Shown here: one piece after another, positions 13,718 through 51,639 of the stretch
Layout: each line of letters begins with the position of its first letter
Position numbering within the stretch: position 1 is the stretch's first letter
The notes under the pieces: generated by a model
Told to the model about the DNA's origin: nothing
Databases searched by the model: none
The model's input: only the letters and a program-made list of their open reading frames with translations
Made by a program: the position numbers and the translations under genes
From: Verminephrobacter eiseniae EF01-2
GTDB lineage: Bacteria > Pseudomonadota > Gammaproteobacteria > Burkholderiales > Burkholderiaceae_C
Length of the DNA stretch: 64,000 bases
Assembly (NCBI RefSeq): GCF_000015565.1
Contig: NC_008786.1
Coordinates: 930,001-994,000, forward strand
Direction of reading: 5' to 3'

Positions 13718-13825
13718 ATGGCCAGATACGGACAAGCATTCGACCGCCTGGTGCTGGCGCCGCCGCACGGCGCAGCGCTGGCGCCGATCGAGGCGCCTGT
13801 CTGGCGCAGCAGGGGGGTTGCGTGA
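13718..13825 (+). CDS. Small open reading frame coupled to the EamA gene
   Basis: Thirty-five codons start at an ATG with AAGGAG five bases upstream and end in a TGA that overlaps the GTG start of the EamA gene (GTGA). The peptide (MARYGQAFDRLVLAPPHGAA...) has no recognised family, no signal peptide and no membrane segment. It may be a leader cistron that drives coupled translation of the transporter, or the start of a decayed gene. Confidence 0.4.
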   Translation: MARYGQAFDRLVLAPPHGAALAPIEAPVWRSRGVA

Positions 13826-26506: not shown

Positions 26507-28113
26507 GACACATGAGCGCCGCCCGGCCGCCCGAAGGCGCTCGTACCGCAGCCGAAGGTGCTCCAGCGAGCTTGCTGACGGTGACGGGACTGGGCAAGTC
26601 CTTCGGCGCGGTCAAGGCGGTCGATGGCATCGGCTTCACGCTGGCCGCCGGCGAGTTGCTGGCGCTGATCGGGCCCAATGGGGCCGGCAAATCGACCACC
26701 TTCAACATGATCAACGGCCAGTTGTCTGCCGATACCGGCTCCATCATGCTCGACGGCCAGCCGCTGCGGGGCCGCAGGCCGCGCCAGATCTTCCGCCTGG
26801 GCGTGGGCCGGACCTTCCAGATAGCCGAGACCTTTGCCTCGCTGACGGTGCTGGAGAACGTGCAAATGGCCCTGCTGGCGCACGAGCAGCGCCTGTTTTC
26901 GTTCTGGCGCAAGGCCGCAGACCACCGGCGCGATGCGGCCCTGGCGCTGCTCGACCAAGTCGGCCTGCAACCCCAGGCCGACCGGCCCTGCCATGCGCTC
27001 GCCTACGGCGACATCAAGCGCGTGGAACTGGCCATGGCCCTGGCCCACGACCCCCGGCTGCTGCTGATGGACGAGCCCACGGCGGGCATGGCCCCGAAAG
27101 AGCGCAACGCGCTGATGGCGCTGACCCGGCAGTTGGTGCGCGGGCGCAGCATGGCCGTGCTGTTCACCGAGCACAGCATGGATGTGGTGTTCGCCCACGC
27201 CGACCGGATGATCGTGCTGGCGCGCGGGCGCCTGATCGCCGAAGGCAAACCGCTGGCGCTGCGTGAGCATCCCGAGGTGCAGCGGGTGTACTTCGGCACC
27301 GGCAAGACTTTCGAGCGCCAGGCGGCCAGCGAGCCCGGCACATCCGGCATACCCGGCGCCGGGGCCGCGGCAAGCGCCGGCGCCCCGGGCGAAGTCCTGC
27401 TGCAGGCCACGGGCTTGCACGCCTGGTACGGCGCAGCGCAGATCCTGTACGACCTCGACCTGTATGTGCGCCGGGGCGAGGTCGTGGCGTTGATGGGACG
27501 CAACGGCGCCGGCAAATCGACCACGCTCAAGGCGCTGATGGGCCTGTTGGCCAGGCGCAGCGGGCAAATCCGCTTCATGGGCCAGGACCTCTCCCGCAGC
27601 GCGCCGCAGGCCGCAGCACGTCTGGGCCTGGGCTATGTGCCCGAAGACCGGCGCGTGTTCACCGATCTGACGGTGCTGGAAAACCTGGAAGTCGGCCGGC
27701 AGCCCGAGCGCCGCTGGCCCGATGGCACGGCCGCCCCGGCGTGGACGCCCGAGCGCCTGTTCGCGCTGTTTCCGAACCTGGGCGCAATGCCGCACCGGCC
27801 CGGCGGCCGCATCAGCGGCGGCGAGCAACAGATGCTGACCGTGGCGCGCACGCTGATGGGCAACCCGCTCTTGCTGCTGCTCGACGAGCCGTCCGAAGGC
27901 GTGGCCCCGGTGATCGTCGAGCAGATGGCCCGGATGATCCTGGAGCTCAAGGCGCAGGGCGTGAGCATCTTGCTGTCCGAGCAGAACATGCACTTTGCCG
28001 AACTGGTGTCCGACCGCGCCTATGTGCTCGAAAAAGGCCAGATCCGTTACCAGGCCAGCATGGCCGAACTGGCCGCCAACGAAGAGGTGCGCCTGTCCTG
28101 CCTGGGTGTCTGA
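26503..28113 (+). CDS. Fused LivG-LivF-type ABC ATP-binding protein with repeat-derived N-terminus
   Basis: This 536-residue protein contains two complete ABC ATPase domains. The first (LivG-like) has Walker A GPNGAGKST at 57-65 and Walker B LLLMDEPTAGM. The second (LivF-like) has Walker A GRNGAGKST near 331-339, signature ISGGEQQM and Walker B LLLLDEPSEG. The first domain's signature region (HALAYGDIKRVELAMAL) is the LivG variant. A linker rich in Gly/Ala/Pro joins the domains near 285. Residues 5-22 ([18 protein letters not shown]) are one unit of the in-frame repeat family. The start overlaps the permease stop as ATGA. Confidence 0.88.
   Translation: MRHMSAARPPEGARTAAEGAPASLLTVTGLGKSFGAVKAVDGIGFTLAAGELLALIGPNGAGKSTTFNMINGQLSADTGSIMLDGQPLRGRRPRQIFRLGVGRTFQIAETFASLTVLENVQMALLAHEQRLFSFWRKAADHRRDAALALLDQVGLQPQADRPCHALAYGDIKRVELAMALAHDPRLLLMDEPTAGMAPKERNALMALTRQLVRGRSMAVLFTEHSMDVVFAHADRMIVLARGRLIAEGKPLALREHPEVQRVYFGTGKTFERQAASEPGTSGIPGAGAAASAGAPGEVLLQATGLHAWYGAAQILYDLDLYVRRGEVVALMGRNGAGKSTTLKALMGLLARRSGQIRFMGQDLSRSAPQAAARLGLGYVPEDRRVFTDLTVLENLEVGRQPERRWPDGTAAPAWTPERLFALFPNLGAMPHRPGGRISGGEQQMLTVARTLMGNPLLLLLDEPSEGVAPVIVEQMARMILELKAQGVSILLSEQNMHFAELVSDRAYVLEKGQIRYQASMAELAANEEVRLSCLGV
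26512..26570 (+). repeat. Single unit of the in-frame N-terminal repeat
   Basis: This reads ATGAGCGCCGCCCGGCCGCC and onward, encoding [20 protein letters not shown], the same unit as at 13828-14067 but with a six-base deletion near its end that keeps the frame. Confidence 0.9.
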
Positions 28114-32978: not shown

Positions 32979-33844
32979 GCACCGAGCGCCTCGTGGCTGC
33001 GGCGCCGGCCGGCCGGCGCGCGTCCAGGCGGGTGCTGCCCGGCTTTGGCCTGACGCTGGGCTACACGCTGTTCTACCTGGGCATCATCGTGCTGATCCCG
33101 CTGTCGGCGCTGATCTTCAAGTCCTTCGCGCTGAGCGGCGAGCAGTTCTGGCGCGCCATCAGCGCGCCGCGCGTGCTGGCCTCGTACCGGCTCACTTTCG
33201 GCGCCTCGTTCCTTGCCGCGCTGGTCAATCTGGTGTTTGGCCTGCTGATCGCCTGGGTGCTGGTGCGCTACCGCTTCCCGGGCAAGAAGATCGTCGACGC
33301 GCTGGTGGACCTGCCGTTCGCGCTGCCCACGGCCGTGGCCGGCATCTCGCTCACGGCCTTGCTGGCAGGCAATGGCTGGGTCGGACAGATTCTGGAGCCG
33401 ATGGGCATCGTGCTGGCGTTCAGGCCCGCAGGCATCGTGATTGCGCTGATCTTCATCGGCCTGCCGTTCGTCGTGCGCACGGTGCAGCCGGTGCTCGAAG
33501 ACGCCGAGAAAGAACTCGAAGAAGCCGCCACCTGCCTGGGGGCCACGCGCTGGCAGACCTTCACCCGGGTCATCCTGCCGACCATCACCCCGGCCCTGCT
33601 GACCGGCTTTGCGCTGGCGTTCGCGCGCGCCGTGGGGGAATACGGCTCGGTGATCTTCATCGCCGGCAACATGCCCATGGTGTCTGAAATCACGCCGCTG
33701 ATCATCATCGGCAAACTCGAGCAGTACGACTATGCCGGCGCCACCGCCGTGGCGCTGGTGATGCTTGTCATCTCGTTCGCCTTGCTGCTGCTCATCAATG
33801 CGCTGCAAGCCTGGCAACGCCGCCATGCGGGGGCACCGGCATGA
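32975..33844 (+). CDS. cysT: Sulfate ABC transporter permease CysT (CysU)
   Basis: This 289-residue membrane protein has six membrane segments. The conserved EAA loop is [33 protein letters not shown] near residues 172-205, the contact with CysA. It starts within the ATGA overlap with sbp and ends in an ATGA overlap with cysW. It forms the sulfate/thiosulfate channel with CysW in the inner membrane. Confidence 0.93.
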
Positions 33845-33954
33845 GTGCTGCACGGCCGCCCGAAGGCACTCATACCGTAGCCGAAGGCGAAGGTGCTCCA
33901 GCGACTGCCGCACGGCCGCCCGAAGGCGAAGGCGCTCCAGTGACTGCCGCGCCC
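33841..33954 (+). repeat. Two units of the in-frame N-terminal repeat in cysW
   Basis: The first unit is full length ([17 protein letters not shown]), the second is shortened internally ([10 protein letters not shown]). Both keep the frame. The unit begins with the ATGA that also ends cysT. Confidence 0.92.
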
Positions 33955-34839
33955 GCCATGGCCCGCGCTCGGCTCCGCCGGGCCGGCAGCAGCCAAGGGC
34001 GCTGGCTGCGCTGCGCGCTGATCGCGCTGGCGCTGGCGTTCATGCTGCTGTTCCTGGTGCTGCCGCTGGCGGCGGTGTTTACCGAGGCGCTGCGCAAGGG
34101 TTTGGGCGCCTACCTCGACGGCCTGCGCGAGCCGGATGCCTGGTCGGCCATCCGGCTGACGCTGCTCACGGCGCTGATTGCGGTGCCGCTGAACCTGGTG
34201 TTCGGCCTGGCCGCCGCCTGGTGCATTGCCAAGTACGAGTTCCGGGGCAAGGCCTTTTTGACCACGCTGGTCGATCTGCCGTTCTCGGTGTCACCGGTGG
34301 TGGCTGGCCTGATCTATGTGCTGATGTTCGGCGCGCAGGGCTGGTTCGGCCCCTGGTTGCAGGCGCATGGCATCACGATCATTTTTGCCGTGCCCGGCAT
34401 CGTGCTGGCCACCTTGTTCGTCACCTTCCCGTTCATCGCGCGCGAGCTGATCCCGCTGATGCAGGCCCAGGGCAACGATGAGGAGCAGGCCGCCATCGTG
34501 CTGGGCGCCACCGGCTGGCAGACCTTCTGGCGCGTGAGCCTGCCCAACATCCGCTGGGGCCTGCTGTACGGCGTGATCTTGTGCAATGCCCGGGCCATGG
34601 GCGAGTTCGGCGCGGTATCGGTGGTGTCGGGCCATATCCGGGGGCAGACCAACACCCTGCCGCTGCATGTGGAGATTCTGTACAACGAATACCAGTCCGT
34701 GGCCGCATTTGCCGCCGCATCGCTGCTGGCCTTGCTGGCGCTGGTCACGCTGGTCATCAAGACCATTGCCGAGCACCGCCATGAGCAGCTGCACATGGCT
34801 GCGGCCCAGTGCCCGCCGGAGCGCCCGCCCGAGCGTTGA
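33841..34839 (+). CDS. cysW: Sulfate ABC transporter permease CysW with repeat-derived N-terminal extension
   Basis: This 332-residue protein has a CysW core from about residue 55 ([29 protein letters not shown]) with the EAA loop [26 protein letters not shown]. The first 40 residues are two degenerate units of the in-frame repeat ([19 protein letters not shown], then a shortened copy), which CysW proteins normally lack. The start overlaps the cysT stop as ATGA, and the repeat begins immediately at that start. The core seems intact, so function is probably retained. Confidence 0.9.
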
Positions 34840-36714: not shown

Positions 36715-38061
36715 TCAGAGCTTTTTGACCAGCACCTGGCTGCGCCGGTCCCAGTTGTACTTGCGCTTGCGCGCATCGGGCAGCCAGTCCGGGTCCACGG
36801 ACTGAAAGCCGCGCTTGAGGAACCAGTGCCTGGTGCGGGTGGTGAGCACGAAAATGCTGTCCAGCCCCAGGCTGCGGGCGCGTTGCTCGACGCGCTTGAG
36901 CAGCTTTTGGCCATCGCCCGTGCCCTGGCTCTGCGGCGATACGGTCAGGGCGGCCATCTCGGCCGTCCTGGCCTCGGGATAGGGGTAGAGCGCGGCGCAG
37001 CCGAAGATCACGCCATCGTGCTCGATGACGGTGTAGGTGGCAATGTCGCGCTCGATCTCGGTGCGGTCGCGCTTGACCAGGGTGCCATCCCTCTCGAAAG
37101 GCTCGATCAACTGCAAGATGCCGCCCACATCGTCGATGCTGGCTTCGCGCAGCGCTTCGAGCTTCTCGTCGATCACCATGGTGCCGATGCCATCGTGCAC
37201 ATAGACCTCCAGCAGCAGCGAGCCATCGACCGCAAACGGCAGGATATGGCTGCGCTCCACGCCGGCCTTGCAGGCCGTCACGCAATGCTGCAGATAAAAG
37301 CCGGCGTCGGCAGGCTGCAAGGCGCCGGGCAAACGGGCCAGCAGGGCCTGGGCGGCGGCCAGCGACAGCTCGGTATCGATGGGATTGTCCTCGCCCCCGG
37401 GCTGGTCGGGCTGCATGCGGATGCCGGGCACCTCGGTCAGAAAGATCAGCTTGTCGGCGCGCAACTCGATCGCCACGCTGGTGGCCACCTCCTCCATGCT
37501 CAGGTTGAACGCCTCGCCGGTGGGCGAAAAGCCGAACGGCGACAGCAGCACCAAGGCGCCCATGTCCAGCGTGCGCTGAATGCCGGCCACATCCACCTTG
37601 CGCACCAGGCCCGAATGCTGAAAGTCCACGCCATCGACGATGCCCACGGGCCGCGCGGTCAGGAAGTTGCCCGAGATCACGCGCACCGTGGCACCGGCCA
37701 TCGGGGTGTTGGGCAGACCCTGGCTGAAAGCGGCCTCGATCTCGTAGCGCAACTGGCCCGCCGCCTCCTGGGCGCAGTCGAGCGCCACCGAATCCGTGAT
37801 GCGGATGCCATGCGCATACCGGGCGACATGCCCCTTGGCGGCCAGTTGCTCGTTCACCTGGGGGCGAAAGCCGTGCACCAGCACGATGCGCACGCCCATG
37901 GCCTGGATCAGCGCCAGATCCTGCGCAATGCCGTGCAGTTTGCCCGCCGCAATGCCCTCTCCGGTCAACCCGATGACAAAAGTCTGGTGGCGAAACTTGT
38001 GGATATAAGGCGCCACCGAGCGGAACCAGGGAACGAAGTTGAAGTTGAAGTTGCTGGACAT
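36715..38061 (-). CDS. argA: Amino-acid N-acetyltransferase ArgA
   Basis: This 448-residue protein has an N-terminal amino-acid-kinase-like domain (residues about 20-285, with FVIGLTGEGIAAGKL and VLVHGFRPQVNEQL) and a C-terminal GNAT acetyltransferase domain (about 300-448, acetyl-CoA motif SPQSQGTGDGQKLL). It makes N-acetylglutamate, the first step of arginine synthesis, and the kinase-like domain mediates arginine feedback. A 166-bp mobile element starts 40 bases upstream of its start codon and may affect its promoter. Confidence 0.93.
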   Translation of the reverse strand: MSSNFNFNFVPWFRSVAPYIHKFRHQTFVIGLTGEGIAAGKLHGIAQDLALIQAMGVRIVLVHGFRPQVNEQLAAKGHVARYAHGIRITDSVALDCAQEAAGQLRYEIEAAFSQGLPNTPMAGATVRVISGNFLTARPVGIVDGVDFQHSGLVRKVDVAGIQRTLDMGALVLLSPFGFSPTGEAFNLSMEEVATSVAIELRADKLIFLTEVPGIRMQPDQPGGEDNPIDTELSLAAAQALLARLPGALQPADAGFYLQHCVTACKAGVERSHILPFAVDGSLLLEVYVHDGIGTMVIDEKLEALREASIDDVGGILQLIEPFERDGTLVKRDRTEIERDIATYTVIEHDGVIFGCAALYPYPEARTAEMAALTVSPQSQGTGDGQKLLKRVEQRARSLGLDSIFVLTTRTRHWFLKRGFQSVDPDWLPDARKRKYNWDRRSQVLVKKL

Positions 38062-38100: not shown

Positions 38101-38266
38101 CTAGTGTCGCGTCATCGGTCAGATGTCGCAGGCTGCGCTCAGCCATCGAAGCGCAGCGCAAGGCGCATCGCGCAGCCAATACCGAGCGTATTGGCAAGCG
38201 ATGCAACGCCGCGATGCGCTTCGATGGCCAGCGCAGACCGACAGATGGTCGGTGACGCGACACTAG
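38101..38266 (+). mobile_element. 166-bp terminal-inverted-repeat element, copy 3 (left edge of AT-richer cassette)
   Basis: Same length and orientation as copies 1 and 2, with a few substitutions (for example CGTCATCGGTC in the left end). It sits between argA and the cassette at 38.4-43.1 kb, whose other side carries copy 4 in the opposite orientation. Confidence 0.94.
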
Positions 38267-38432
38267 GGGCAGGCCGGCATCATAAGGGCGCATCCCGTGC
38301 TGGCGCGCTGGCATTTGCCGGGCGGATGCCGGTGATCGATCCGTGCCCGACGCCCGGCCCTTCTTTTCGATGTTTGCAGCATCGAGTCCTGAAAAGCGTT
38401 CAAAATGGCAGAAAAATAATAAACGACTGCTT

Positions 38433-39209
38433 ATGATCCGACATCCACACATCATGGATACATCAATGACAACATCTGTCTTATCGCGTCGCCGTGATAT
38501 CGCCGAGCGCTATGCCAAAACCAGTTGGGAGCAGATACTGTTCTCGGAATTCTCGACGAGCCTGGAAAGCAGCAACCGGCCGTTTCCTTGCATCTTCGGC
38601 GTGCGCGGGTTCAAACTGGATCAGTTGCGCTACGTTTTTCAGGAGAATCTCGATCTGGATTTGACATCGGCGGCGCTGCAAGAATTCGTCCGCGACGCCA
38701 GGAGCTTCGGGCCGAACACCTCGCTCGTCATCTTTACGCGGCCTGAAGAAATAAAATCCATCGATGCGTATCAGGAAGAATTTTGGAAGATCCTGAAGGG
38801 ATTGGCTGACAGGGATCACACCCCCTGGCCCGAGCATATGCCGACAGAGATCACCCATCCGGAATGGGAATTCTGCTTTGCAGGTGAACCGGTATTCGTC
38901 GTCTGCAACACGCCTGCACATATATTTCGGCAAAGTCGGCGCGCAAGCTCTTTCATGCTGACCTTCCAGCCACGGTGGGTCTTCGACAAGATATTGGGAA
39001 CGGAGAAATCGACACAAACCGCCTTTGGCGCGGTGAGAAAGCGGATCGCGCACTATGATTTCCTGCCCGTATCGCCCAAGCTCGGAAAATATGGCCACCC
39101 GGGCGTTCTCGAATCCGAGCAGTATTTTTTGGATGATCGCAACCAAGGCGGCAGTTCATGTCCTTTCCAGGCACTGGGCGAGCGCCATGGCGCAGCCATC
39201 CGGCAATGA
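38433..39209 (+). CDS. YqcI/YcgG family protein, putative heme-dependent N-oxygenase
   Basis: This 258-residue soluble protein has family blocks RPFPCIFGVRGFKLDQLRYVF near residue 45, SLVIFTRPEEIKSIDAYQEEFWKIL near 95, DITHPEWEFCFAGEPVFVVCNTPAH-like near 135-160, and a C-terminal GHPGVLESEQYFLDDRN. The YqcI/YcgG family includes heme-dependent N-hydroxylases of natural-product pathways (the guanitoxin enzyme GntA). The start is uncertain: ATGs at 38433, 38454 and 38466 are in frame and none has a strong ribosome-binding site. It is followed by a cupin gene with an ATGA overlap. Codon use is AT-richer than the flanking core genes. Confidence 0.72.
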   Translation: MIRHPHIMDTSMTTSVLSRRRDIAERYAKTSWEQILFSEFSTSLESSNRPFPCIFGVRGFKLDQLRYVFQENLDLDLTSAALQEFVRDARSFGPNTSLVIFTRPEEIKSIDAYQEEFWKILKGLADRDHTPWPEHMPTEITHPEWEFCFAGEPVFVVCNTPAHIFRQSRRASSFMLTFQPRWVFDKILGTEKSTQTAFGAVRKRIAHYDFLPVSPKLGKYGHPGVLESEQYFLDDRNQGGSSCPFQALGERHGAAIRQ

Positions 39210-39532
39210 AAGGCATGGACATGACGGAAGTAATCAGAAACATCCATACCGATTTCTCACTGCTGGAAGATGTCATTCAGATCCTTCCCGAACAGGGATG
39301 TATCGAAGTTCAGCACGATGGCCCGGGCAAGGTTCATGACTGGCATCAGCATGCCAACGAGGAAACACTGATCATCCTGAAGGGGAAGATGACTTTCGCG
39401 CTCGAAAGTGGCGTTCATGTATGCGGGCCAGGCGATATGCTGCACCTGTGCGCGAATGATCGACACCGATCCGTTGCCGGGCCGCAAGGGGCGGTCTATC
39501 TCATCGCTTTTCGTCGGCTGGATATCAGATAG
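39206..39532 (+). CDS. Small single-domain cupin
   Basis: This 108-residue protein has cupin motif 1 as HDWHQHANEETLIILKG (metal ligands H, H, E and a later H expected) near residues 46-62 and motif 2 as CGPGDMLHLCANDRH near 77-91. The first ATG overlaps the upstream stop (ATGA); ATGs at 39215 and 39221 are alternatives and are preceded by AAAGG. Small cupins of this type are metalloenzymes or isomerases in biosynthetic clusters. Tight coupling to the putative N-oxygenase suggests it acts on that product. Confidence 0.82.
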   Translation: MKGMDMTEVIRNIHTDFSLLEDVIQILPEQGCIEVQHDGPGKVHDWHQHANEETLIILKGKMTFALESGVHVCGPGDMLHLCANDRHRSVAGPQGAVYLIAFRRLDIR

Positions 39533-39576
39533 TGCGCAGCCCGGAGCCTCATGGGGCCTTCACGGCAGCAGGACCG

Positions 39577-40632
39577 TCATCGGCTTGCAGCGCTCGATGT
39601 GAAATGCTGGCGCAGTTCGGAGGGCGGTACGCCAAAACGCCTGATGAAGGTGCGCCGCATACGCTCGTCGTCTGTGAAACCGCATTTGTCTGCGATGCGC
39701 TTCAAACTCAGCTTCGGGTAATCGGCAAGCATTCGCTGTGCGGCATCGACACGCAAATTCTCGATGGCCCGTCTTGGCGTGACGCCCGTTTCATCAACGT
39801 AAAACCTGGCGAAGCTCCGCAATGACATTCCGGTCTTTTCGGCCAGTGTTTCCACTGATAACGGCCGGTGCAGATTGTCCGAGATCCAGGCGTGCAAATC
39901 GGACAGTTTTCCGTCGGCGGCTGCCGATTGTGTTTCGAGCAATTTGCTGTATTGCGATTGGCCGCCCGAGCGTTTGAGAAACACCACGAGACCGCGTGCG
40001 ACATCCGCAGCCAGGCAATGACCGTGGTCCCTCTCGATGATGGCCAGGGCCAGATCGATTCCCGCAGTCACCCCCGCCGAGGTCCAGATGTTTTCATCAT
40101 GGATGAAGATGGGGTTGGCATCGACGCGCACATCCGGAAATTCGGCCTGTAGTCTCTGACAGTATCGCCAATGGGTCACCACACGCTTGCCGGTGAGCAA
40201 ACCGGCGTGGCCAAGCAAAAAGGCGCCAATACAGACGGATGCAATCTCGGTGGCTTTCCGCTGCGAGCGCAAATAGGCATCGACCATGGTGATGGTCTCC
40301 AGGTTCCATACTCCCGGGCCGCCCGGTACGACAATCAAATGGGGATTGTCTGCGGCATCGTCCTGCCACGAGGTCGCCTCGACAGGAACACCGACATCGG
40401 TTTGCAGCCGGCCCGATCGGCTGGCGGCCAACCTGATCTCATAGGCCGGGGGTTTGCCCGCATTGCGGCGAATGGCATTCGCCGCCTCAAACGCCTGCAT
40501 CGGCCCGGCCAGGTCGAGCAAGGTCAGGCCGTCATAACCGGCGAAGAGGATTCTTTTCGCACCGTCCGTTTTGGTGGCCATATTGGCAGGATTTGCCTGC
40601 AGCAGCAGGCCCGATTTCAGATAGTCTGTCAT
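39577..40632 (-). CDS. GlxA/FtrA-type transcriptional regulator (DJ-1/PfpI domain plus AraC helix-turn-helix)
   Basis: This 351-residue regulator has an N-terminal DJ-1/PfpI-like domain (about 20-200: ILFAGYDGLTLLDLAGPMQAFEAAN, VVPGGPGVWNL, and SVCIGAFLLGHAGLLTGKRVVTHW with the nucleophile-position cysteine) and a C-terminal AraC-type DNA-binding domain (about 250-345: RPLSVETLAEKTGMSLRSFARFYVDETGVTP...). It lies between the two rightward gene pairs of the cassette and is divergent from the ATP-grasp gene by 47 bases, so it is probably the local regulator. The start at 40632 is one of two plausible (the other near 40581). Confidence 0.85.
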   Translation of the reverse strand: MTDYLKSGLLLQANPANMATKTDGAKRILFAGYDGLTLLDLAGPMQAFEAANAIRRNAGKPPAYEIRLAASRSGRLQTDVGVPVEATSWQDDAADNPHLIVVPGGPGVWNLETITMVDAYLRSQRKATEIASVCIGAFLLGHAGLLTGKRVVTHWRYCQRLQAEFPDVRVDANPIFIHDENIWTSAGVTAGIDLALAIIERDHGHCLAADVARGLVVFLKRSGGQSQYSKLLETQSAAADGKLSDLHAWISDNLHRPLSVETLAEKTGMSLRSFARFYVDETGVTPRRAIENLRVDAAQRMLADYPKLSLKRIADKCGFTDDERMRRTFIRRFGVPPSELRQHFTSSAASR

Positions 40633-40679
40633 TTTTGAGCCGTGGCCTGCGCACGGAAAATACGGAAAAGAGTCATCCC

Positions 40680-41942
40680 ATGAATATGCACATGGAACCG
40701 GATGCAGTGGCGGCAAGCATGAATCCCGGGAACCGTCTGGCGCTCGCCATCGTTGACCCGTCATCGGCCGGCTATTTCATCGCCAAGCGGGCGCTGGAAC
40801 GCGGGTTCATGTGCATTGCGATTTCATTGTCGCATGCGGCGCCTGCCGACATCGATTTTAGCTGGTCGCGCGACTGCCTGGATTCAAACTTTGACGCCCT
40901 GGTCGCGCTCGATTCTTATGACGCCATCATGCCCGGCGCGGAAAGCGGTGTGTGCCTTGCCGAGGAACTTGCAGCGCGGCTCGGATTGGCGGGCAACGAT
41001 CCGGAAACGACCGCGCGGCGCCGGAACAAAACCGCCATGGCGCAAGCGGTGGCAGAGGCCGGCATTGCGGTGTGTCGCCAGGCATGTTGCCGCTCTGTGT
41101 CAGATTGCATGGCCTGGGCCGAAGCCACCGGCTACCCGGTGGTCGTCAAGCCCGAGGCCAGTTCCGGGGGCGATCTGGTTCGGGTCTGCCAGACACGGGA
41201 CGCGCTTTCGCAGCATGCATCGGCGATTCTCGACAAACCCGACAGATATGGGCAAAACACCCGCAGTGTCCTGATCCAGGCATTCATGGCGGGTGACGAA
41301 TACACGGTCGATGGCGTCGTTTCAAACCAGGTGCTCACCATTTTTGCCGTCGGCAAATATCGCAAAATCAACCTGAATGGGGCGATGGTATATGACAAGA
41401 TAGACTTTCTCGCGCCGAGCGATCCGGCCGTCGACCGCAGGATGCTCAGTTACTGCGAAGCCGTGACCAGGGCCGTCGGCGTGCGCGTGGGCCCGGTCCA
41501 CATCGAGGTCATGCTGACGGCGAACGGGCCACTGCTCGTGGAAATCGCCGCGCGGGCCCATGGCGGCATTGGCGCATCGGTGATCGACGCCAGCTTTGTT
41601 CCTTCGTTCATCGATGCCATCATCGACTCGTACATACCCGGCGCATCTGCTGGCGCAACAGGCCAGATCATCCGGAAGAAGACTTCGTCGATCGCATTTC
41701 TGATTTCCGATCGGGCCGGCACATTGGTGGCTGCGCCTGGAATCGGGAATATCCGATCCCTTACCTCGTTCGTGCGTTTGAAATGCTTCACGGCCCCGGG
41801 CGATGCCATACCGAAAACCGTCGACCTCGTTACCTGCCCCGCCCTTGTCGAACTGTCCGATGATGATCCGGGGGTCATCGAAGCCGACATCGAAAGGATT
41901 CGGGAACTGGAACGCTCTGGCGCCATATGGGAGATTGCATGA
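40680..41942 (+). CDS. ATP-grasp domain ligase
   Basis: This 420-residue enzyme has an N-terminal preATP-grasp domain (about 10-100), central ATP-binding residues in NKTAMAQAVAEAG (about 115-128) and TGYPVVVKPEASSGGDLVRV (about 153-172), and the Mg-binding HIEVMLTANGPLLVEIAARAHGG segment (about 275-300). This resembles L-amino-acid ligases and carnosine-synthase-like enzymes that join amino acids or carboxylates to amines via acyl phosphate. The start is the ATG at 40680. Its stop overlaps the MFS exporter start, a pairing seen in dipeptide antibiotic clusters such as bacilysin. Confidence 0.82.
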   Translation: MNMHMEPDAVAASMNPGNRLALAIVDPSSAGYFIAKRALERGFMCIAISLSHAAPADIDFSWSRDCLDSNFDALVALDSYDAIMPGAESGVCLAEELAARLGLAGNDPETTARRRNKTAMAQAVAEAGIAVCRQACCRSVSDCMAWAEATGYPVVVKPEASSGGDLVRVCQTRDALSQHASAILDKPDRYGQNTRSVLIQAFMAGDEYTVDGVVSNQVLTIFAVGKYRKINLNGAMVYDKIDFLAPSDPAVDRRMLSYCEAVTRAVGVRVGPVHIEVMLTANGPLLVEIAARAHGGIGASVIDASFVPSFIDAIIDSYIPGASAGATGQIIRKKTSSIAFLISDRAGTLVAAPGIGNIRSLTSFVRLKCFTAPGDAIPKTVDLVTCPALVELSDDDPGVIEADIERIRELERSGAIWEIA

Positions 41943-43144
41943 TGGTCCGGATGCACAAGACTTCGCTGGCGATTTTCGTGACCCTGCTTTCCCTGACCAT
42001 GGTCGGCGAGGGCATGATTACCGTGACGCTTCTGTGGACCAGTGCGAGCATGGGCCAATCGCCGATCTTCATCGGCGTCGTCCTGTTCATCATGAATATG
42101 GTGCCATTTCTGGCGCAAATCCTGTTCAAACCCATGCGCCGGGCGATCGAACAGCATCCTCTGGGCATGATCATCATGCCCAGAATGATCGGCTGCGTTG
42201 CGGCGAGCCTTGCGGGCATGACATTGGATGCATCGGGTCTGATCACTTTGATTGCCGTCGCGGCATGTCTGACCTTCATCAGTTTCATCAGTCAACAGTG
42301 CATCGAGACCTTGATGGGGCAATTGACCGTCACGGGAATGCTCGATGCCGGAACGTCGGCACGGCTTTCGCAAACTGCTTTGCAAAGTGGCGTCTTCGTC
42401 GGGAACGCGCTGGCCGGCATCCTGATTGCGAAGTCGGGAACGGGCTGGGTGTTTTTTGGAATCGCCGTCAGTTTTGCCAGCAGCCTCCTGCTCTTGTTTG
42501 CTGCGCCATGGGTACGGATGGGCAGGGAATCTCCTGCGCAAACCGGCGCGGGCCATGCAGCCATGCCGGCGCAGCGGCATATGTCAGAGCGCACGCTGTG
42601 GCTGTTGCTCGCAGGCATGGCACTGTTGGCCGTTCAACTCAGCGGTTTCAATTTCTTTGTTCCGCTGATTTTCGAAAGCCGCTCCGGAACGTCCGCTGCC
42701 GACTATGGTCTGGTGAGTGCTGCGGCAGGGGTTGGCGCGCTCCTTGCCACATTTGTCCGTTTTTCCCTGCGCGGATATATCGGCCATGCTGCCTGCGGCG
42801 CCGTGGTGATTGGCGATGCGCTGGTCACCCAGCCTGTCGGGATGGTGCTGACAAGCGTGTTCGCCTTTGCCATAGGGTTCGGATTCAACATATCCAGAAT
42901 CCGGATTCGACAGGCCATCTTCGAGCGTCTGACGACAAAGCAGGAATCTGCCCTCTGGGGCGGCCGCGTCACCGTTGCATTTCGCGGTGTCAGCGCGGGT
43001 GCTCCGATGCTCTTTGGCCTGCTCCTGATGGGCCAGGTACCGGTGGCGCAAAGCTGGGTATTCGCGGCCATCGGCGTGCTGACCATGGGTGTGGCGATTC
43101 CGGCTTGTCTGCTCTTTTCCACGAGAACGCCCGTCTGGCGTTGA
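41939..43144 (+). CDS. Major facilitator superfamily transporter (probable exporter)
   Basis: This 401-residue membrane protein has about eleven to twelve hydrophobic segments, starting LAIFVTLLSLTMVGEGMITVTLLW. Two adjacent ATGs (41939 and 41942) overlap the ATP-grasp stop. There is no obvious sugar- or acid-importer signature; coupling to a ligase gene suggests export of the ligase product and self-protection. It is the last gene of the AT-richer cassette. Confidence 0.83.
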   Translation: MMVRMHKTSLAIFVTLLSLTMVGEGMITVTLLWTSASMGQSPIFIGVVLFIMNMVPFLAQILFKPMRRAIEQHPLGMIIMPRMIGCVAASLAGMTLDASGLITLIAVAACLTFISFISQQCIETLMGQLTVTGMLDAGTSARLSQTALQSGVFVGNALAGILIAKSGTGWVFFGIAVSFASSLLLLFAAPWVRMGRESPAQTGAGHAAMPAQRHMSERTLWLLLAGMALLAVQLSGFNFFVPLIFESRSGTSAADYGLVSAAAGVGALLATFVRFSLRGYIGHAACGAVVIGDALVTQPVGMVLTSVFAFAIGFGFNISRIRIRQAIFERLTTKQESALWGGRVTVAFRGVSAGAPMLFGLLLMGQVPVAQSWVFAAIGVLTMGVAIPACLLFSTRTPVWR

Positions 43145-43300
43145 CGGGAAAACTCCGCGCCATCGCTTCGGGCCATGCCGCCTCGGGCGGCAAACGCTGC
43201 GTCTTGGCGCATATTCGAGCGAATGCCGGATTTCGCGGTGCAAGGCCGGGTTTGTCGCGCATCGGATACTGCTGCCCGGCCAGCGCGGCCGCCCGGCAGC

Positions 43301-43466
43301 CTAGTGTCGCGTCACCGATCATCTGTCGGTCTGCGCTGGCCATCGAAGCGCATCGCGGCGTTGCATCGCTTGCCAATACGCTCGGTATGGGCTGCGCGAT
43401 GCGCCTTGCGCTGCGCTCCGATGGCTGCGCGCAGCCTACGACATCTGATCGGTGACGCGACACTAG
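43301..43466 (-). mobile_element. 166-bp terminal-inverted-repeat element, copy 4, inverted (right edge of AT-richer cassette)
   Basis: Same length as copies 1-3 but in the opposite orientation (its interior reads as the reverse complement). It lies 156 bases after the MFS stop and 115 bases before hrpA. Confidence 0.95.
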
Positions 43467-43581: not shown

Positions 43582-46500
43582 ATGCCTTCTCCTGACCTGC
43601 GTTCGCCCCCGCTTTCCCGCACCCCGTTGCATATCGAGTTTCCGCCAGCGCTGCCCGTATCGGGCCAGCGCGAGGAGATCATGGCGGCGCTGGCACGGCA
43701 CCAGGTCGTGATCGTTTGCGGTGCGACCGGCTCCGGCAAGACCACGCAATTGCCCAAGATCGCGCTGGCGCTGGGCCGTGGCAGGTGCAACGCCAAGCCC
43801 GGCGCCGATGGCCAGGTGCGCGGCCAACTCATAGGCCACACCCAGCCGCGACGCCTGGCGGCCAGCAGCGTGGCCAAGCGCATTGCCGAGGAGCTTCAGA
43901 CCCCGCTGGGCGAGGTGGTGGGTTTCAAGGTGCGGTTCCAGGACCGCCTCGCGCGCACGGCCTCGGTCAAACTGATGACCGACGGCATCTTGCTGGCCGA
44001 GACGCAGACCGACCCGCTGCTGCGCGCCTACGACACCATCATCATCGACGAGGCGCATGAGCGCAGCCTGAACATCGATTTTTTGCTCGGCTACCTGCGC
44101 CAGATCCTGCCGCGCCGGCCGGATCTGAAGCTCGTCATCACCTCGGCCACCATCGATGCCGACCGCTTTGCCAGGCATTTCGCGTCGGGCGACGCAATGA
44201 CCTGCGCACCCGTCATCGAGGTGTCGGGCCGCAGTTTCCCGGTGGAACTGCGCTGGCGCCCGTTCGAGGAAACGCGCGAGTACGGCCTGCATGAAGCCAT
44301 CGCCGATGCGGTCGACGAGCTTTGGCAGGGCGCCCCGGGAGGCGACATCCTGGTGTTCCTGCCCGGCGAGCGCGAGATCCGCGAAGCCGCCGACCATTTG
44401 TGCAAGCACCTGGCGCAGCAGCCGGTGCTGCGCAATACCGAGGTGCTGCCCCTGTATGCCCGCCTGGCGCAGGCCGAACAAGAGCGCATCTTCGACGGCC
44501 ACACCGGCCGGCGCATCGTGCTGGCCACCAATGTGGCCGAGACCTCGCTCACCGTGCCTGGAATACGCCATGTGATCGACACCGGAACGGCGCGCGTCAA
44601 GCGCTACAGCTTTCGCAGCAAGGTGGAGCAGTTGCTGGTCGAGCCGATCAGCCAGGCGGCGGCCAACCAGCGCGCCGGGCGCTGCGGGCGGGTGGCCGAC
44701 GGCATCTGCATCCGCCTGTACGACGAGGCCGACTTCAACAGCCGCCCGCGCTTTACCGACCCCGAGATCCTGCGCAGTTCGCTGGCCGGCGTGATCTTGC
44801 GCATGAAGGCGCTGCACCTGGGCGATGTGGCGCAGTTTCCGTTCCTCGATGCGCCCTCGGGCCGGGCGTTGGCCGACGGCTACCAGTTGCTGTCCGAGTT
44901 GGGCGCGGTCGACGATGCGAACCAGCTCACGCCCATGGGGGTGGAACTGGCGCGCCTGCCGCTCGACCCGCGCGTGGGCCGCATGCTCGTCGAGGCGCGC
45001 GAGCGCCAGGCGCTGGCCGAGGTGCTGGTGATTGCCAGCGCGCTGAGCGTGCAGGATGTGCGCGACCGGCCCATCGAGGCCCAGCAGCAGGCCGACCAGG
45101 CGCAGGCCAAATTCGACGACGACAAGAGCGAGTTCAGCGGCTATCTGAAGCTGTGGAAATGGCTCGGCGAGGCCCGTGGCGGCGCGCCCGGCCTGCCATC
45201 GGCGCGCGCGCAAAAAGCCCGGGCGCTCGGCAAAGCGCCGGCGCAGGCCATCCTGCCGGTGGCGCAGCGGCTGACCACGCCGGCGGCCGCGCCAACGGCG
45301 CTGCCCGCATCCGCCCCCGCACCGGCGGCGCTGCCCACGCACAAGCTCAGCAACCGGCAGTACGAGCAGTTGCTGCGGCACAACTTCATCAGCCCGCGCC
45401 GCCTGCGGGAGTGGCGCGACATCCATGGCCAACTGCTCACGGTGGTGACCGAGCACCAGTGGCCGATCAATACCCAACCCGCCAGCTATGAGCAGTTGCA
45501 CCTGTCGATGCTGGCCGGGTTGCTGGGCAACATCGGCGCCAAGAGCGACGAGCAAGACTGGTACCTGGGCGCGCGCGGCATCCGGTTTTACAAGCACCCG
45601 GGCGCGCATCTGTCGAAAAAACCGGGCCGCTGGGTGGTCGCGGCCGAACTGGTGGAGACCACGCGCCTGTTTGGCCGGGGCATGGCCGCCATCGAGCCGC
45701 AGTGGCTCGAACAGGTGGGGCGCCATCTGCTGAAAAAGCAGTTGCTCGACCCGCATTGGGAGAAAAAGTCCGCCGATGTGGTGGCGCTGGAGCGGGCCAC
45801 GCTCTACGGCATCGTGGTCTACAGCGGGCGCCGCGTGAACTTCGGCACCCTCGACCCGCAGGCCGCGCGCGAGATCTTCATCCGCGAGGCCCTGGTGGCC
45901 GGCAACTGGGAGACCCGGTTGCCGTTCCTGGCCGCCAACCAGCAACTGATCGCCAAGGTGCAGGAACTCGAGCACAAGTCGCGCCGCCAGGATGTGCTGG
46001 TCGACGACGAACTGATCTACGCCTTCTACGAGCGGCAACTGCCCGCCGAGGTGTGCAGCGGCCACAGCCTGGAGACCTGGTACCGGCAACAGAGCCGGCA
46101 GCAGCCCGATCTGCTGCGGCTGACGCGCGAAGAACTGATGCGCCATGAGGCCGCAGGCATCACCGGCAACGCCTTTCCCCGGATCGTGCGCCTGGGCGGG
46201 GTGGACTGCGCCGCCAGCTACCTGCACGAGCCTGGCGCTGCCAGCGACGGCATCACCGTGACCGTGCCACTGTTCGCGCTCAACCAGGTCAGCGAGCAGC
46301 GCTGCGAATGGCTGGTGCCCGGCATGCTCCGGGACAAGCTGCAAGCCCTGCTCAAAAGCCTGCCGCAACGCCCGCGCAGCCGCCTGGTGCCGCTGCCCGA
46401 GACGGCCACGCGCCTGGCCGGACTGCTGGGCGCGCCCGAACACTTTGGCGCCGGCGGCCTGATCGAAGCGCTGCTCGGGCAGGTGCGCGCGCACACCTCG

Positions 46501-47673
46501 CTGGACGTGCAGCGGGCCGACTTCAAGCTGGACATGCTCAGCCCGCATCTGTTCATGAACTTCCGCCTGGTCGACGAACATGGCCGCCAACTCGGCCATG
46601 GCCGCAACCTGGCGGCCCTCAAAGCCGAGTGGGGCGGGATGGCGCGGGGCGCGTTCCAGGTGCTGGCGGGGCTCAAGCTCGGCCAGGCAGCGGGCCCGCC
46701 AGTGGAGTCAAAACCGGCTGTGGTGCGCGAAAAGCATGTATCGCATGTATCCATGGCTGCCAAATCAGTGGCAAAAACGACACCGATCCCCCCCGCCGGC
46801 CAGCGCTACACCGGTTGGACCTTTGGCGCGCTGCCCGAGTTGCTGGAAATCAGCCAGAACGGGCAGACGCTGATCGGCTTTGCGGCGCTGATCGACGGCG
46901 GCGACGCCGTCACCATCGAGGCATTCGACGAGCCGCAGGTGGCGGCCGCCCAACACCGGGCCGGTCTGCGCCGCCTGTTTGCGCTACAGATCAAGGACGC
47001 CGTCAAATCCCTGGAAAAAAACATCCCCGGCCTGCACGCCATGGCCGTGGCCTATATGCACGTCGGGCGCTTGCCGGACGGAACCGGCGCGGGCACGCCA
47101 GAGGAACTGCGCAAGCAAATCATCGACCTGGCCCTGGAGCGCGCCTTCATGCCCGACCCGCTGCCCGCCGACGAAGACGCCTTCAGGCGCCGGGTCGACG
47201 AGGGCCGGGAGCGCCTGGCGCTGATCGCCAACGAAGTGGCACGCCTGGCCGCCACCATCCTGGCCGAATACGCCGCCGCCGCGCGCAAGATCCGGGACAC
47301 CCGCAACGCCCCGGAGGCCACGCAAGACGCGCAGCAGCAGTTGCAGCGCCTGATGCCGAAAAACTTCATCGCCGCCACGCCCTGGACGCAGTTGCTGCAT
47401 TACGCGCGCTACCTGAAGGCCATCACGCTGCGGCTGGACAAGATCCGCACCGACCCGGCGCGCGACGCCGCCCGACTGGCCGAGCTGCGTCCGCAAGAGC
47501 AGCGCTACTGGCGCCTGGTGGCCGAGCGCAAAGGCGCCATCGATGCGCGCATGCAGGAACTGCGCTGGCTGCTGGAAGAACTGCGCGTGAGCTTTTTTGC
47601 GCAAGAGCTGCGCACACCCCAGCCGGTCAGCGTCAAGCGGCTGGACAAGCTGTGGGCACAGATCAAAAGCTGA
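43582..47673 (+). CDS. hrpA: ATP-dependent RNA helicase HrpA
   Basis: This 1363-residue DEAH-box helicase has Walker A GATGSGKT at residues 47-54, the DEAH box at 155-158, SATID shortly after, the helicase C domain with QRAGRCGR near 365, the HA2 domain, an OB-fold region and the long HrpA-specific C-terminal domain (DUF3418). Two low-complexity linkers are present, an Ala/Pro-rich one near 555-590 and one near 1035-1070. HrpA acts on ribosomal and messenger RNA. Large open frames on the opposite strand are codon-bias shadows. Confidence 0.93.
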   Translation: MPSPDLRSPPLSRTPLHIEFPPALPVSGQREEIMAALARHQVVIVCGATGSGKTTQLPKIALALGRGRCNAKPGADGQVRGQLIGHTQPRRLAASSVAKRIAEELQTPLGEVVGFKVRFQDRLARTASVKLMTDGILLAETQTDPLLRAYDTIIIDEAHERSLNIDFLLGYLRQILPRRPDLKLVITSATIDADRFARHFASGDAMTCAPVIEVSGRSFPVELRWRPFEETREYGLHEAIADAVDELWQGAPGGDILVFLPGEREIREAADHLCKHLAQQPVLRNTEVLPLYARLAQAEQERIFDGHTGRRIVLATNVAETSLTVPGIRHVIDTGTARVKRYSFRSKVEQLLVEPISQAAANQRAGRCGRVADGICIRLYDEADFNSRPRFTDPEILRSSLAGVILRMKALHLGDVAQFPFLDAPSGRALADGYQLLSELGAVDDANQLTPMGVELARLPLDPRVGRMLVEARERQALAEVLVIASALSVQDVRDRPIEAQQQADQAQAKFDDDKSEFSGYLKLWKWLGEARGGAPGLPSARAQKARALGKAPAQAILPVAQRLTTPAAAPTALPASAPAPAALPTHKLSNRQYEQLLRHNFISPRRLREWRDIHGQLLTVVTEHQWPINTQPASYEQLHLSMLAGLLGNIGAKSDEQDWYLGARGIRFYKHPGAHLSKKPGRWVVAAELVETTRLFGRGMAAIEPQWLEQVGRHLLKKQLLDPHWEKKSADVVALERATLYGIVVYSGRRVNFGTLDPQAAREIFIREALVAGNWETRLPFLAANQQLIAKVQELEHKSRRQDVLVDDELIYAFYERQLPAEVCSGHSLETWYRQQSRQQPDLLRLTREELMRHEAAGITGNAFPRIVRLGGVDCAASYLHEPGAASDGITVTVPLFALNQVSEQRCEWLVPGMLRDKLQALLKSLPQRPRSRLVPLPETATRLAGLLGAPEHFGAGGLIEALLGQVRAHTSLDVQRADFKLDMLSPHLFMNFRLVDEHGRQLGHGRNLAALKAEWGGMARGAFQVLAGLKLGQAAGPPVESKPAVVREKHVSHVSMAAKSVAKTTPIPPAGQRYTGWTFGALPELLEISQNGQTLIGFAALIDGGDAVTIEAFDEPQVAAAQHRAGLRRLFALQIKDAVKSLEKNIPGLHAMAVAYMHVGRLPDGTGAGTPEELRKQIIDLALERAFMPDPLPADEDAFRRRVDEGRERLALIANEVARLAATILAEYAAAARKIRDTRNAPEATQDAQQQLQRLMPKNFIAATPWTQLLHYARYLKAITLRLDKIRTDPARDAARLAELRPQEQRYWRLVAERKGAIDARMQELRWLLEELRVSFFAQELRTPQPVSVKRLDKLWAQIKS

Positions 47674-49654: not shown

Positions 49655-50470
49655 TCAACGCGCCCGGCCCAGATAGGCTTGCAGGCGCTGTTTGAGCCCC
49701 GGGCGGGCGGCCGACCGGGTGAGCGTGGCCAGATCCTCGTTGGCGTTGACCGGGCCGAGCACCCGGTAGAGCTCGGCGCGGGTAATGTCCTCCAGCGCCG
49801 CAGCCGCAGCGTCGACCTCTTCGATGATCGCGGGCCATGCCGCCATGTCTGCCACCCGGGTGACGAACCCCATCGCGTGCGCCTGCCCGGCGCTGAAACC
49901 CTGGCCGCTTTCGAGCACGGCACGCGCGCGCTCGGCACCGACGATGGCACCGAAGCGCCGAGACCCGAGCACCAAGCCGAATTGGAGCCCGGGCATGCGC
50001 AACAGCGTATCCGGGCTCGCAATGCGGTGGCGGCACACGGCGAGCAGGTCCACGCCGGCGCCAAACACCTTGCCATGGGCCAGCGCCAGCGTTTGCGCCG
50101 GCGACTGGGCGATGGCCTGCAGCAGCATCTCGATACGCACGAAGCGCAGCAGCAAATCCCCTTCACTTTGCGCTTGCAGCCCCGACAGATCGAAGCCGGC
50201 GCTGAAGCTCTTGCCAGCACCGCGCAAGATCAGCAGGCGCGCCCCCTGCGCGTTCGCGCTGGCCACCGCCTGCAACAAGGCATCGACGAGTTGCGCATCC
50301 AGCGCGTTGAGCTTGTCCGGACGGTTCAGCGTCAGCGTCCAGACGCCTTCGGCCCGCTGCACTTGCAGCACCGTGCCGTCGGCATCCGCATGGCTCGCCG
50401 CCGCGCTCACGGGAGCACCTGCGCCTTCGGCTGCGGTATGAGCGCCTTCGGGCGGCCGTGCTGCGCCCAT
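49655..50470 (-). CDS. Enoyl-CoA hydratase/isomerase family protein with repeat-derived N-terminus
   Basis: This 271-residue crotonase-fold protein has WTLTLNRPDKLNALDAQLVDAL near residue 45, the oxyanion-hole segment GKSFSAGFDLSGLQ near 85, and HGKVFGAGVDLLAVCRHRIASPD near 130. The position that usually carries a catalytic glutamate should be checked by alignment, because the sequence around GLQFGLVLGSRRF is atypical. The first 22 residues (MGAARPPEGAHTAAEGAGAP) are one unit of the in-frame repeat. The ATG overlaps the CoA-transferase stop (ATGA). Confidence 0.83.
   Translation of the reverse strand: MGAARPPEGAHTAAEGAGAPVSAAASHADADGTVLQVQRAEGVWTLTLNRPDKLNALDAQLVDALLQAVASANAQGARLLILRGAGKSFSAGFDLSGLQAQSEGDLLLRFVRIEMLLQAIAQSPAQTLALAHGKVFGAGVDLLAVCRHRIASPDTLLRMPGLQFGLVLGSRRFGAIVGAERARAVLESGQGFSAGQAHAMGFVTRVADMAAWPAIIEEVDAAAAALEDITRAELYRVLGPVNANEDLATLTRSAARPGLKQRLQAYLGRAR
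50401..50470 (-). repeat. Single unit of the in-frame N-terminal repeat in the enoyl-CoA hydratase gene
   Basis: It reads, in the sense of the gene, ATG GGC GCA GCA CGG CCG and onward, encoding the ARPPEGAHTAAEG peptide. As in the three other genes it begins at the start codon and in the sense direction. Confidence 0.9.
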
Positions 50471-51639
50471 CACGGCACCCCCGCAGTGGCCGCTGCGCGC
50501 AACGGCCCCAGGATCTCATCGTTGTGCTCGCCCAGCGCCGGCGGGCGCCGGCGCACGGGCAGCGTTGCCCCGGCGATGCGCACCGGCGCGCCGAAGGTCT
50601 GCGTCCTGACGCCATTGGGCAGTTCCAGTGGCTGCACCCAGGCCATGTGCTCGACCTGCGGATCCTTGAGCACATCGGAATAACGGTTGATCGGCGCGCA
50701 GGGAACACCCACAGCGCGAAAACGCGCCAGCCATTCTTGCGTGCCGGCCTGCACGAAGTCGGCCTCCAGGATCGCCAGCAGCGCCTCCTGATGGGTCGCC
50801 CGGCCCGTCGGCGAGACAAAGCGCGGGTCCGCCAGCAGTTGCGGGCGCTGGACCACCCCGCACACCGCGCGCCACAGCGCGTCATTGCCGGCTGCCATCG
50901 CGAAGTAACCATCCTGGCTACGAAACACCCGGTACGGCGCATTGCGCGGATGGGCAGAGCCGAGCGCGCGCGGGTCGCGGCCGCTGCCGAAATACTCCGA
51001 AGTCTGCAGCGCTGCGATGCCCAGCGTGGCGCCGAGCATCGGCACGTCCAGGTGCACGCCGCGCCCGGTCTGGTCCGTGGCGCGCAGCGCAGAGGCGATG
51101 GAGAACGCCGCGTACAGGCCGGCGGCGAAATCGGCCAAAGGAACGCCGCACTTGACCGGAGCGCCGCCGGCCTCGCCGGTGACGCTCATGATCCCGCTCA
51201 TCGCCTGCACGGTCAGATCGAACCCGCCCTCGCTGGCCCGCGGCCCGGACTGCCCGTAGGCCGAGATGGAGCAATAGACCAGCCGGGGATTGACCTGCGC
51301 CAGCGCCGCATAGCCCGCGCCCAGGCGCTCCATCACCCCGGGGCGGTTGTTCTCTATCAGCACCTGGGCACCTTGCGCCAAAGCGCGCAGCATGGCCAGG
51401 TCCGCCGGCTCTTTCAGGTTCAGCGTCACCGAACGCTTGTTGCGATTGAGCGCGGCAAAGTTCTCGCTGTAGCCATCGCTGAGCGGCGGCCACGAACGCA
51501 GCGTATCGCCGCCCTCGGGATTTTCGACCTTGATGACATCCGCGCCCATATCGGCCAGCAACATGCCGCAGTACGGCCCGGCAGCCACATTGCACACCTC
51601 GATCACCTGTATGCCCGCCAGAGGAAGTTGGCCAGCCAT
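50470..51639 (-). CDS. Family III CoA-transferase (CaiB/BaiF type)
   Basis: This 389-residue CoA-transferase opens with LAGIQVIEVCNVAAGPYCGMLLADMGADVIKVENPEGGD, the family hallmark. The catalytic aspartate is probably in KCGVPLADFAAGLYAA near residue 168. Members move CoA between carboxylic acids. It is directly upstream of, and coupled to, the enoyl-CoA hydratase gene, and downstream of an acyl-CoA dehydrogenase and SDR remnant on the same strand, forming a beta-oxidation-like set. Confidence 0.88.
   Translation of the reverse strand: MAGQLPLAGIQVIEVCNVAAGPYCGMLLADMGADVIKVENPEGGDTLRSWPPLSDGYSENFAALNRNKRSVTLNLKEPADLAMLRALAQGAQVLIENNRPGVMERLGAGYAALAQVNPRLVYCSISAYGQSGPRASEGGFDLTVQAMSGIMSVTGEAGGAPVKCGVPLADFAAGLYAAFSIASALRATDQTGRGVHLDVPMLGATLGIAALQTSEYFGSGRDPRALGSAHPRNAPYRVFRSQDGYFAMAAGNDALWRAVCGVVQRPQLLADPRFVSPTGRATHQEALLAILEADFVQAGTQEWLARFRAVGVPCAPINRYSDVLKDPQVEHMAWVQPLELPNGVRTQTFGAPVRIAGATLPVRRRPPALGEHNDEILGPLRAAATAGVP

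Follow-up and report, generated by a model that had tools for sequence, protein, structure and literature searches.

What do five AT-rich genes of Verminephrobacter eiseniae EF01-2, a bacterium of the earthworm-symbiont type, make together, and how did they come to lie between argA and hrpA? The genes occupy positions 38466-43144 of the window, by which we mean the whole stretch of DNA analysed (64,000 nucleotides of contig NC_008786.1). They encode a YqcI/YcgG heme-type guanidine N-oxygenase, a stand-alone cupin, a DJ-1/PfpI-AraC regulator, an ATP-grasp peptide ligase and an exporter of the major facilitator superfamily (MFS) type, an assignment made in the first-pass annotation and confirmed here by Pfam profile matches together with homology for the transporter. 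We propose, with a probability of about one half, that the block is a laterally acquired cassette whose N-oxygenase and cupin would act as a two-protein analogue of SznF, the streptozotocin N-nitrosating enzyme, making an N-N-bonded amino acid from arginine that the ligase would couple and the exporter would export.

The first gene (38466-39209, + strand) encodes a predicted free-arginine N-hydroxylase that matches PF08892 at 240.2 bits, against a cut-off of 27, and AglA in the PDB with an E value of 1e-21. Its residues were mapped through the AglA-YqcI alignment and the residues named in PMC12866846, across 15 aligned cupin-linked YqcIs. C42 aligns to Cys44, the axial heme ligand of AglA, and is invariant in all 15. 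Phe152, Arg166, Gln177, Arg179, Phe182 and Gln228 of AglA fall on identical residues that are likewise invariant, the arginine-contact residues among them being F144, Q168, R170, F173 and Q219 of the cassette protein, and Arg200 of AglA is kept in 13 of the 15. A related YqcI-cupin fusion has the same fold as AglA (template modelling score 0.87-0.88). Argolaphos belongs to a phosphonate pathway, and the two lysines that make the aminomethylphosphonate (AMPn)-phosphate contacts in AglA, Lys196 and Lys225, are replaced in the cassette YqcI by Phe187 and Glu216, the latter being Glu in 15/15 of the aligned proteins. According to the available text of PMC12866846, Lys196 contacts the phosphonate group, and changing Lys225 to Glu (K225E) lets AglA hydroxylate N-delta of free arginine, whose amino group the new Glu anchors. 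Since a natural Glu stands where this substitution gains free-arginine hydroxylation, the alignment argues for free arginine as the substrate of the cassette YqcI, and N-hydroxylation of arginine is its likely activity. The GntA/guanitoxin type of YqcI was also considered and was ruled out, its NF041366 score of 51.3 bits lying below the cut-off of 145.

The second gene (39206-39532, + strand, starting at 39206 or 39221) encodes the cupin, a separate protein of 103-108 residues depending on the start, which is matched by Cupin_2 at 37 bits and is predicted to be an N-N bond-forming rearrangement enzyme. Counting from the 39221 start, all 23 aligned sequences share H39, H42, H44, E48, H82 and Y93, and the HxH-E-H-Y spacing was found in all 39 YqcI-linked cupins. 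None of the nine other Cupin_2 matches of the genome carries this motif; none carries the three-His-Glu set either, so the tyrosine is not separable from the rest in this comparison. Profile columns 40-96 of the cupin align to residues 405-462 of SznF, and arithmetic from these end points, assuming native chain numbering, pairs H42, H44, H82 and Y93 with SznF H407, H409, H448 and Y459. In the available text of PMC11705231 these four SznF residues are reported to be essential, and the SznF cupin is described as rearranging a dihydroxyguanidine to form the N-N bond. The His and Tyr columns also line up in the printed alignment of a Pantoea SznF-like protein and in a Tistrella GrbD-like protein. 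On balance we consider formation of the N-N bond by the cupin more probable than not.

The two proteins are linked well beyond this genome. A cupin directly adjoins or is fused to YqcI in 32 of 80 YqcI loci, 11 of the 32 being fusions. Among the best 120 of 661 homologues of the fusion (E<=1e-20), 82 exceed 320 residues, the cupin motif being present in 80 of the 82; YqcI-cupin fusions of about 350-358 residues occur in Bacilli, Paenibacillus and betaproteobacteria (L057:8974-10026, L050:8950-10017, L056, L165 and L181). When pairwise identities among the YqcIs are compared with those among their cupins, the two matrices correlate with r=0.92 over 39 pairs and 0.83 over 29 dereplicated pairs, and 0 of 2000 permutations reach either value. 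The 39 pairs come from 88 YqcI loci, the initial 80 and eight added ones (the window, L164, L165, L166, L176 and L179-L181), and since seven of the eight added loci carry a cupin the pairs are not an unbiased sample. On a midpoint-rooted FastTree tree of 89 YqcIs, cupin linkage requires 2 changes, compared with at least 23 in 500 shuffles, and the cupin-linked YqcIs fall into two clades, one with 32 members and one, of Bacilli, with 7. This association is new here: one subfamily of YqcI goes with a small cupin, which either adjoins it or is fused to it, and the two evolve together.

Since YqcI adjoins or fuses with a cupin of matching catalytic residues, the simplest reading is a heme-based, split SznF in which a heme enzyme would stand in place of the diiron domain. 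Judging from residue-level homology, the cysteine-ligated heme YqcI would hydroxylate free L-arginine on its guanidine nitrogens, probably at two of them (N-delta and N-omega), using a host ferredoxin and reductase. The cupin, with a metal held by three His and a conserved Tyr, would then rearrange the hydroxylated intermediate to form the N-N bond, giving either a diazeniumdiolate (graminine-like) or an N-nitroso amino acid. The ATP-grasp ligase would join this product to another amino acid without a nonribosomal peptide synthetase (NRPS), and the MFS-type protein would export the dipeptide, which may be a metal chelator, a nitric oxide donor or an antimetabolite. The DJ-1/AraC protein would regulate the cassette. 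The five genes include no arginine methyltransferase, unlike the SznF system, and because of this a graminine-like product appears likelier than a methyl-nitrosourea.

The likeness to SznF lies in the pairing of an oxygenase with a cupin on what would be the arginine guanidine, and in the fact that both can share one polypeptide, as they do in the YqcI-cupin fusions. SznF differs in having a heme-oxygenase-like diiron oxygenase (HDO) domain, which is absent from the products of the five genes between argA and hrpA; the cassette has the PF08892 heme-type enzyme instead, and its cupin is separate. Also related in logic are the diazeniumdiolate pathways of chalkophomycin (ChmN/ChmM) and gramibactin (GrbE/GrbD), in which, by the available accounts, an arginine N-oxygenase of the YqcI type is paired with a protein that carries a cupin. 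ChmN is reported there to dihydroxylate arginine and ChmM is the proposed cupin partner, its action on dihydroxyarginine being given as not demonstrated, and both grbD and grbE are reported to be required for graminine. In those systems a SznF homologue is the partner, GrbD in one and ChmM, whose HDO domain is degenerate, in the other, whereas here it is a stand-alone or fused cupin. Assembly there proceeds by NRPS and polyketide synthase, and here would use ATP-grasp ligases; none of the five genes between argA and hrpA encodes an NRPS, the rest of the genome not having been searched for one.

The combination of oxygenase, cupin and ligase also has a precedent in prediction. Aravind and colleagues predicted in 2010 operons of HDO-cupin and ATP-grasp proteins (PMC2922099) which, like the cassette, combine a predicted oxygenase-cupin, an ATP-grasp peptide ligase and an exporter, and which, unlike it, have a diiron HDO-cupin protein accompanied by a Rieske protein. 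The available text of that paper links YqcI/YcgG to NRPS-type operons in a single mention. A gene row that parallels the cassette is found on the Pantoea dispersa plasmid NZ_CP082345.1 (L182, 12507-23745), with genes for a SznF-like HDO-cupin, a Rieske protein, a methyltransferase resembling protein arginine methyltransferases, an MFS protein and an ATP-grasp protein. It adjoins ada, the O6-methylguanine-DNA methyltransferase and regulator gene, and may be an NRPS-free methyl-nitroso peptide cluster with self-protection. KinJ-type heme hydrazine enzymes were considered as relatives and were not used, the available text of PMC12154649 containing no YqcI, YcgG or cupin. In the open-licence PMC literature, as far as its available text goes, we found no description of a YqcI-cupin-ATP-grasp cassette or of YqcI-cupin fusions, in keeping with the earlier remark that no described pathway has exactly these five genes.

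The remaining three genes are organised around a short divergent gap. The regulator is encoded on the - strand at 39577-40632, its longest open reading frame (ORF) extending to 40764; it was identified with Pfam as a DJ-1/PfpI-AraC (GATase1-like) protein and is FtrA/GbdR-like in NCBIfam, below the model cut-offs. The ligase gene follows at 40680-41942 (+ strand), and the interval between them, 40633-40679 as judged from ORF coordinates and the chosen starts, is likely to be a regulatory region. The start of the exporter gene (41939-43144, + strand) overlaps the stop of the ligase gene, and yqcI and the cupin gene overlap in the same way, a pattern of co-translated genes. The ligase matches ATP-grasp_4 at 50.9 bits and PDB 30vh, an "L-amino acid ligase", with an E value of 4.2e-45 over 398 residues, and is accordingly of L-amino-acid-ligase type; its LAL C-terminal domain 2 scores 25.1 bits, under the curated cut-off of 29.4. 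The ligase shares 97% identity with a protein of Verminephrobacter eiseniae. It is homologous to the ATP-grasp dipeptide ligases, including the dapdiamide synthase DdaF, and its DdaF-like NCBIfam score of 148.7 bits is far below the equivalog cut-off of 840. The fifth protein gave no Pfam match at E<=1e-3 and a weak NCBIfam antiporter match of 19.5 bits, far under the cut-off. Its prediction as an MFS-type exporter comes from homology to the transporters of related clusters, among which that of Paenibacillus (L057) matches Pfam MFS_1 and that of Xenorhabdus has no Pfam match.

An alternative that we consider unlikely is that the cassette makes an N-hydroxyarginine dipeptide as in argolaphos, and that the cupin does other chemistry, such as C-N cleavage, isomerisation or a release of nitric oxide or a hydroxyurea-like compound. 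Argolaphos, in the available description, has a YqcI enzyme and an ATP-grasp ligase in one cluster (AglA/AlpD with AlpC), as the cassette does, and its final product retains N-hydroxyarginine. SznF ties with many cupins in the fold comparison, and neither the fold nor the overall sequence of the cassette cupin is SznF-specific. Against this alternative, the spacing of the Tyr and the three His matches the essential residues of SznF, and the natural YqcI-cupin fusions mirror the oxygenase-cupin layout of that enzyme. Hydroxypropylphosphonate epoxidase is a cupin-fold enzyme. The argolaphos gene table, in its available part, lists AlpG as hydroxypropylphosphonate-epoxidase-like and holds no small cupin of the cassette type.

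A search for the block in other genomes bears on the second alternative, which we regard as quite unlikely: that regulator, ligase and exporter form an independent dipeptide system and that YqcI and the cupin were placed alongside it with no shared pathway. The whole five-gene set recurs in a Rhizobiaceae genome (G480, locus L176) in identical order and orientation at 62-66% protein identity, which speaks against chance company, as does the repeated placing of distant ligases and exporters beside YqcI-cupin in other lineages. Xenorhabdus beddingii (L044) and G1044, a genome of the same family, share the order transporter-ligase-yqcI-cupin, with both ligases matching ATP-grasp_4 and both transporters lacking a Pfam match; the G1044 genes have a GC content of 0.34-0.38. 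In a Rhodobacter metagenome-assembled genome (L046), as in three Paenibacillus loci (L057-L059), yqcI-cupin is accompanied by two ATP-grasp genes and one of MFS type.

Other loci favour independence and weigh against the arginine-to-dipeptide pathway as we propose it. Two genomes, G335 and G785 (loci L170 and L199), keep regulator, ligase and exporter with no YqcI or cupin nearby, and no PF08892 gene was found in either genome. From the other side, the 32 cupin-linked loci of the survey are accompanied by an amino-acid permease in 12 cases, DJ-1/AraC and MFS genes in 8, ATP-grasp and a transporter in 5 and no tested gene in 7, so that 20 of the 32 have a permease, or an MFS gene without ATP-grasp. 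Since G335 and G785 keep the second group of genes without YqcI, the five genes make up two modules, which have repeatedly joined, and not one obligatory unit. The first-pass view of a complete small pathway holds in that N-oxidation, cupin chemistry, ligation and export form a plausible set; it needs qualifying for the set as a fixed whole.

The block is a foreign, horizontally acquired cassette, since its composition stands apart from its surroundings: GC is 58.3% over 38466-43144 compared with 67.3% in the window outside the stretch from one bordering repeat element to the other (see below), and GC at third codon positions is 0.60-0.71 in the five genes compared with 0.87-0.88 in argA and hrpA. 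The AT-richness noticed at first pass is thus real. On the left lies the argA-like N-acetylglutamate synthase gene (36715-38061, - strand; Pfam AA_kinase and Acetyltransf_1 (GNAT)), and on the right the hrpA-like DEAH helicase gene (43582-47673, + strand; DUF3418 and helicase domains), both outside the cassette. Of 23 congeners searched, 22 have argA, and in the stretches fetched from these 22 no cassette gene was found at argA (tblastn, E<=1e-4); none of the 22 has the cassette there, which together with the composition bears out horizontal acquisition. The cassette is an insertion at the argA-hrpA junction.

In 4 of the 22 congeners hrpA abuts argA, and in 17 of the remaining 18 it starts 1.4-5.1 kb away, the contig ending before hrpA in the other one. 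Because the eight argA-hrpA gaps that were inspected hold spacers with other ORFs, the junction in congeners is variable rather than simply empty. When the cassette flanks were joined and set against one congener junction in which argA and hrpA abut, the spacer did not align cleanly as an empty site, and a relaxed search of a V. aporrectodeae-like locus for remnants of yqcI and the cupin gave short matches alone, with E >0.1. The ligase is present in 2 of 47 genomes of the genus and YqcI in 5 of 299 genomes of the family, the source genome being counted in both, with an adjoining cupin in 2 of the other 4. The congener interval (L146-L163), ranging from abutting genes to about 5 kb with differing ORFs, suggests an insertion-prone site.

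Two copies of a 166-bp element with inverted ends CTAGTGTCGCGTCA stand at the edges of the block (38101-38266 and 43301-43466), as had been noted, in opposite orientation and 96% complementary (38101-38267 against 43300-43466). The first-pass annotation saw in them the possible ends of a moving unit bounded by miniature inverted-repeat transposable elements, a reading that is not supported. The element is a dispersed repeat, judged to be without function for the cassette, with four copies in the window and 143 exact-end copies in the 5,597,943 bases scanned (two contigs). Mobilisation of the entire block by the two elements, as one composite unit, is very improbable: two oppositely oriented copies do flank it closely, but with 143 copies placed at random about nine opposite-facing neighbour pairs no more than 5.2 kb apart would be expected by chance, ten related loci (L044, L046, L057-L059, L170, L176, L182, L199 and L200), the exact five-gene copy included, have neither an element match (blastn, E<=1e-3) nor an exact end, and none of the recognised genes that lie between the elements encodes a transposase. 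The copy density, the pairs expected by chance and the absence from related loci make the pair weak evidence for anything, and the elements probably did not carry the cassette. Congener argA loci likewise contain no exact element end, and a plasmid search using the element gave no match.

For the question of how arginine becomes graminine, the heme-cupin fusion, or the two-gene pair, would offer a minimal system in which to ask whether a cupin alone can form the N-N bond. More tentatively, we suggest that YqcI-cupin may be a widespread N-N bond-forming class, a heme N-oxygenase with a cupin, often fused (about 355 residues, in Bacilli and some Proteobacteria), that alone would convert free arginine to an N-nitroso or diazeniumdiolate amino acid, from which the ATP-grasp ligases of such cassettes may build NRPS-free exported peptides with metal-chelating, nitric oxide-releasing or antimetabolite properties. 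If this is true, an NRPS-free route to N-N-bonded peptides would be added, and many YqcI-cupin proteins of soil, marine and symbiotic bacteria would gain an annotation.

The neighbourhoods of related loci contain several further genes. In Bradyrhizobium, a 244-residue protein with no Pfam match (L033:6931-7665) is encoded between the DJ-1/AraC and MFS genes of a YqcI-cupin locus. A plasmid of Rhodoferax antarcticus (L181) carries a YqcI-cupin fusion with genes for an amino-acid permease, a 2-oxoglutarate-Fe(II) oxygenase and LysE, and a Tn3-family transposase lies close by. Beside the G480 cassette (L176:12530-17350) are genes for an extracytoplasmic function sigma factor, FecR and a 972-residue STN-domain protein, and a Thioclava YqcI-cupin pair has a gene for a TonB-dependent siderophore receptor about 3.6 kb upstream rather than directly beside it. 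A metallophore role was considered from these neighbours and set aside as a weak hint, given the distance of the Thioclava receptor and the lack of any TonB-receptor barrel match in the 972-residue protein.

A second dispersed repeat family is present in the window at 13823-14121, 26512-26561, 33842-33960 and 50398-50485. It is tandem with 60-nt spacing at 13827-14121, and at 33841 it is apparently translated as the repeated N-terminus of a 332-residue ORF, which by eye resembles a transporter permease.

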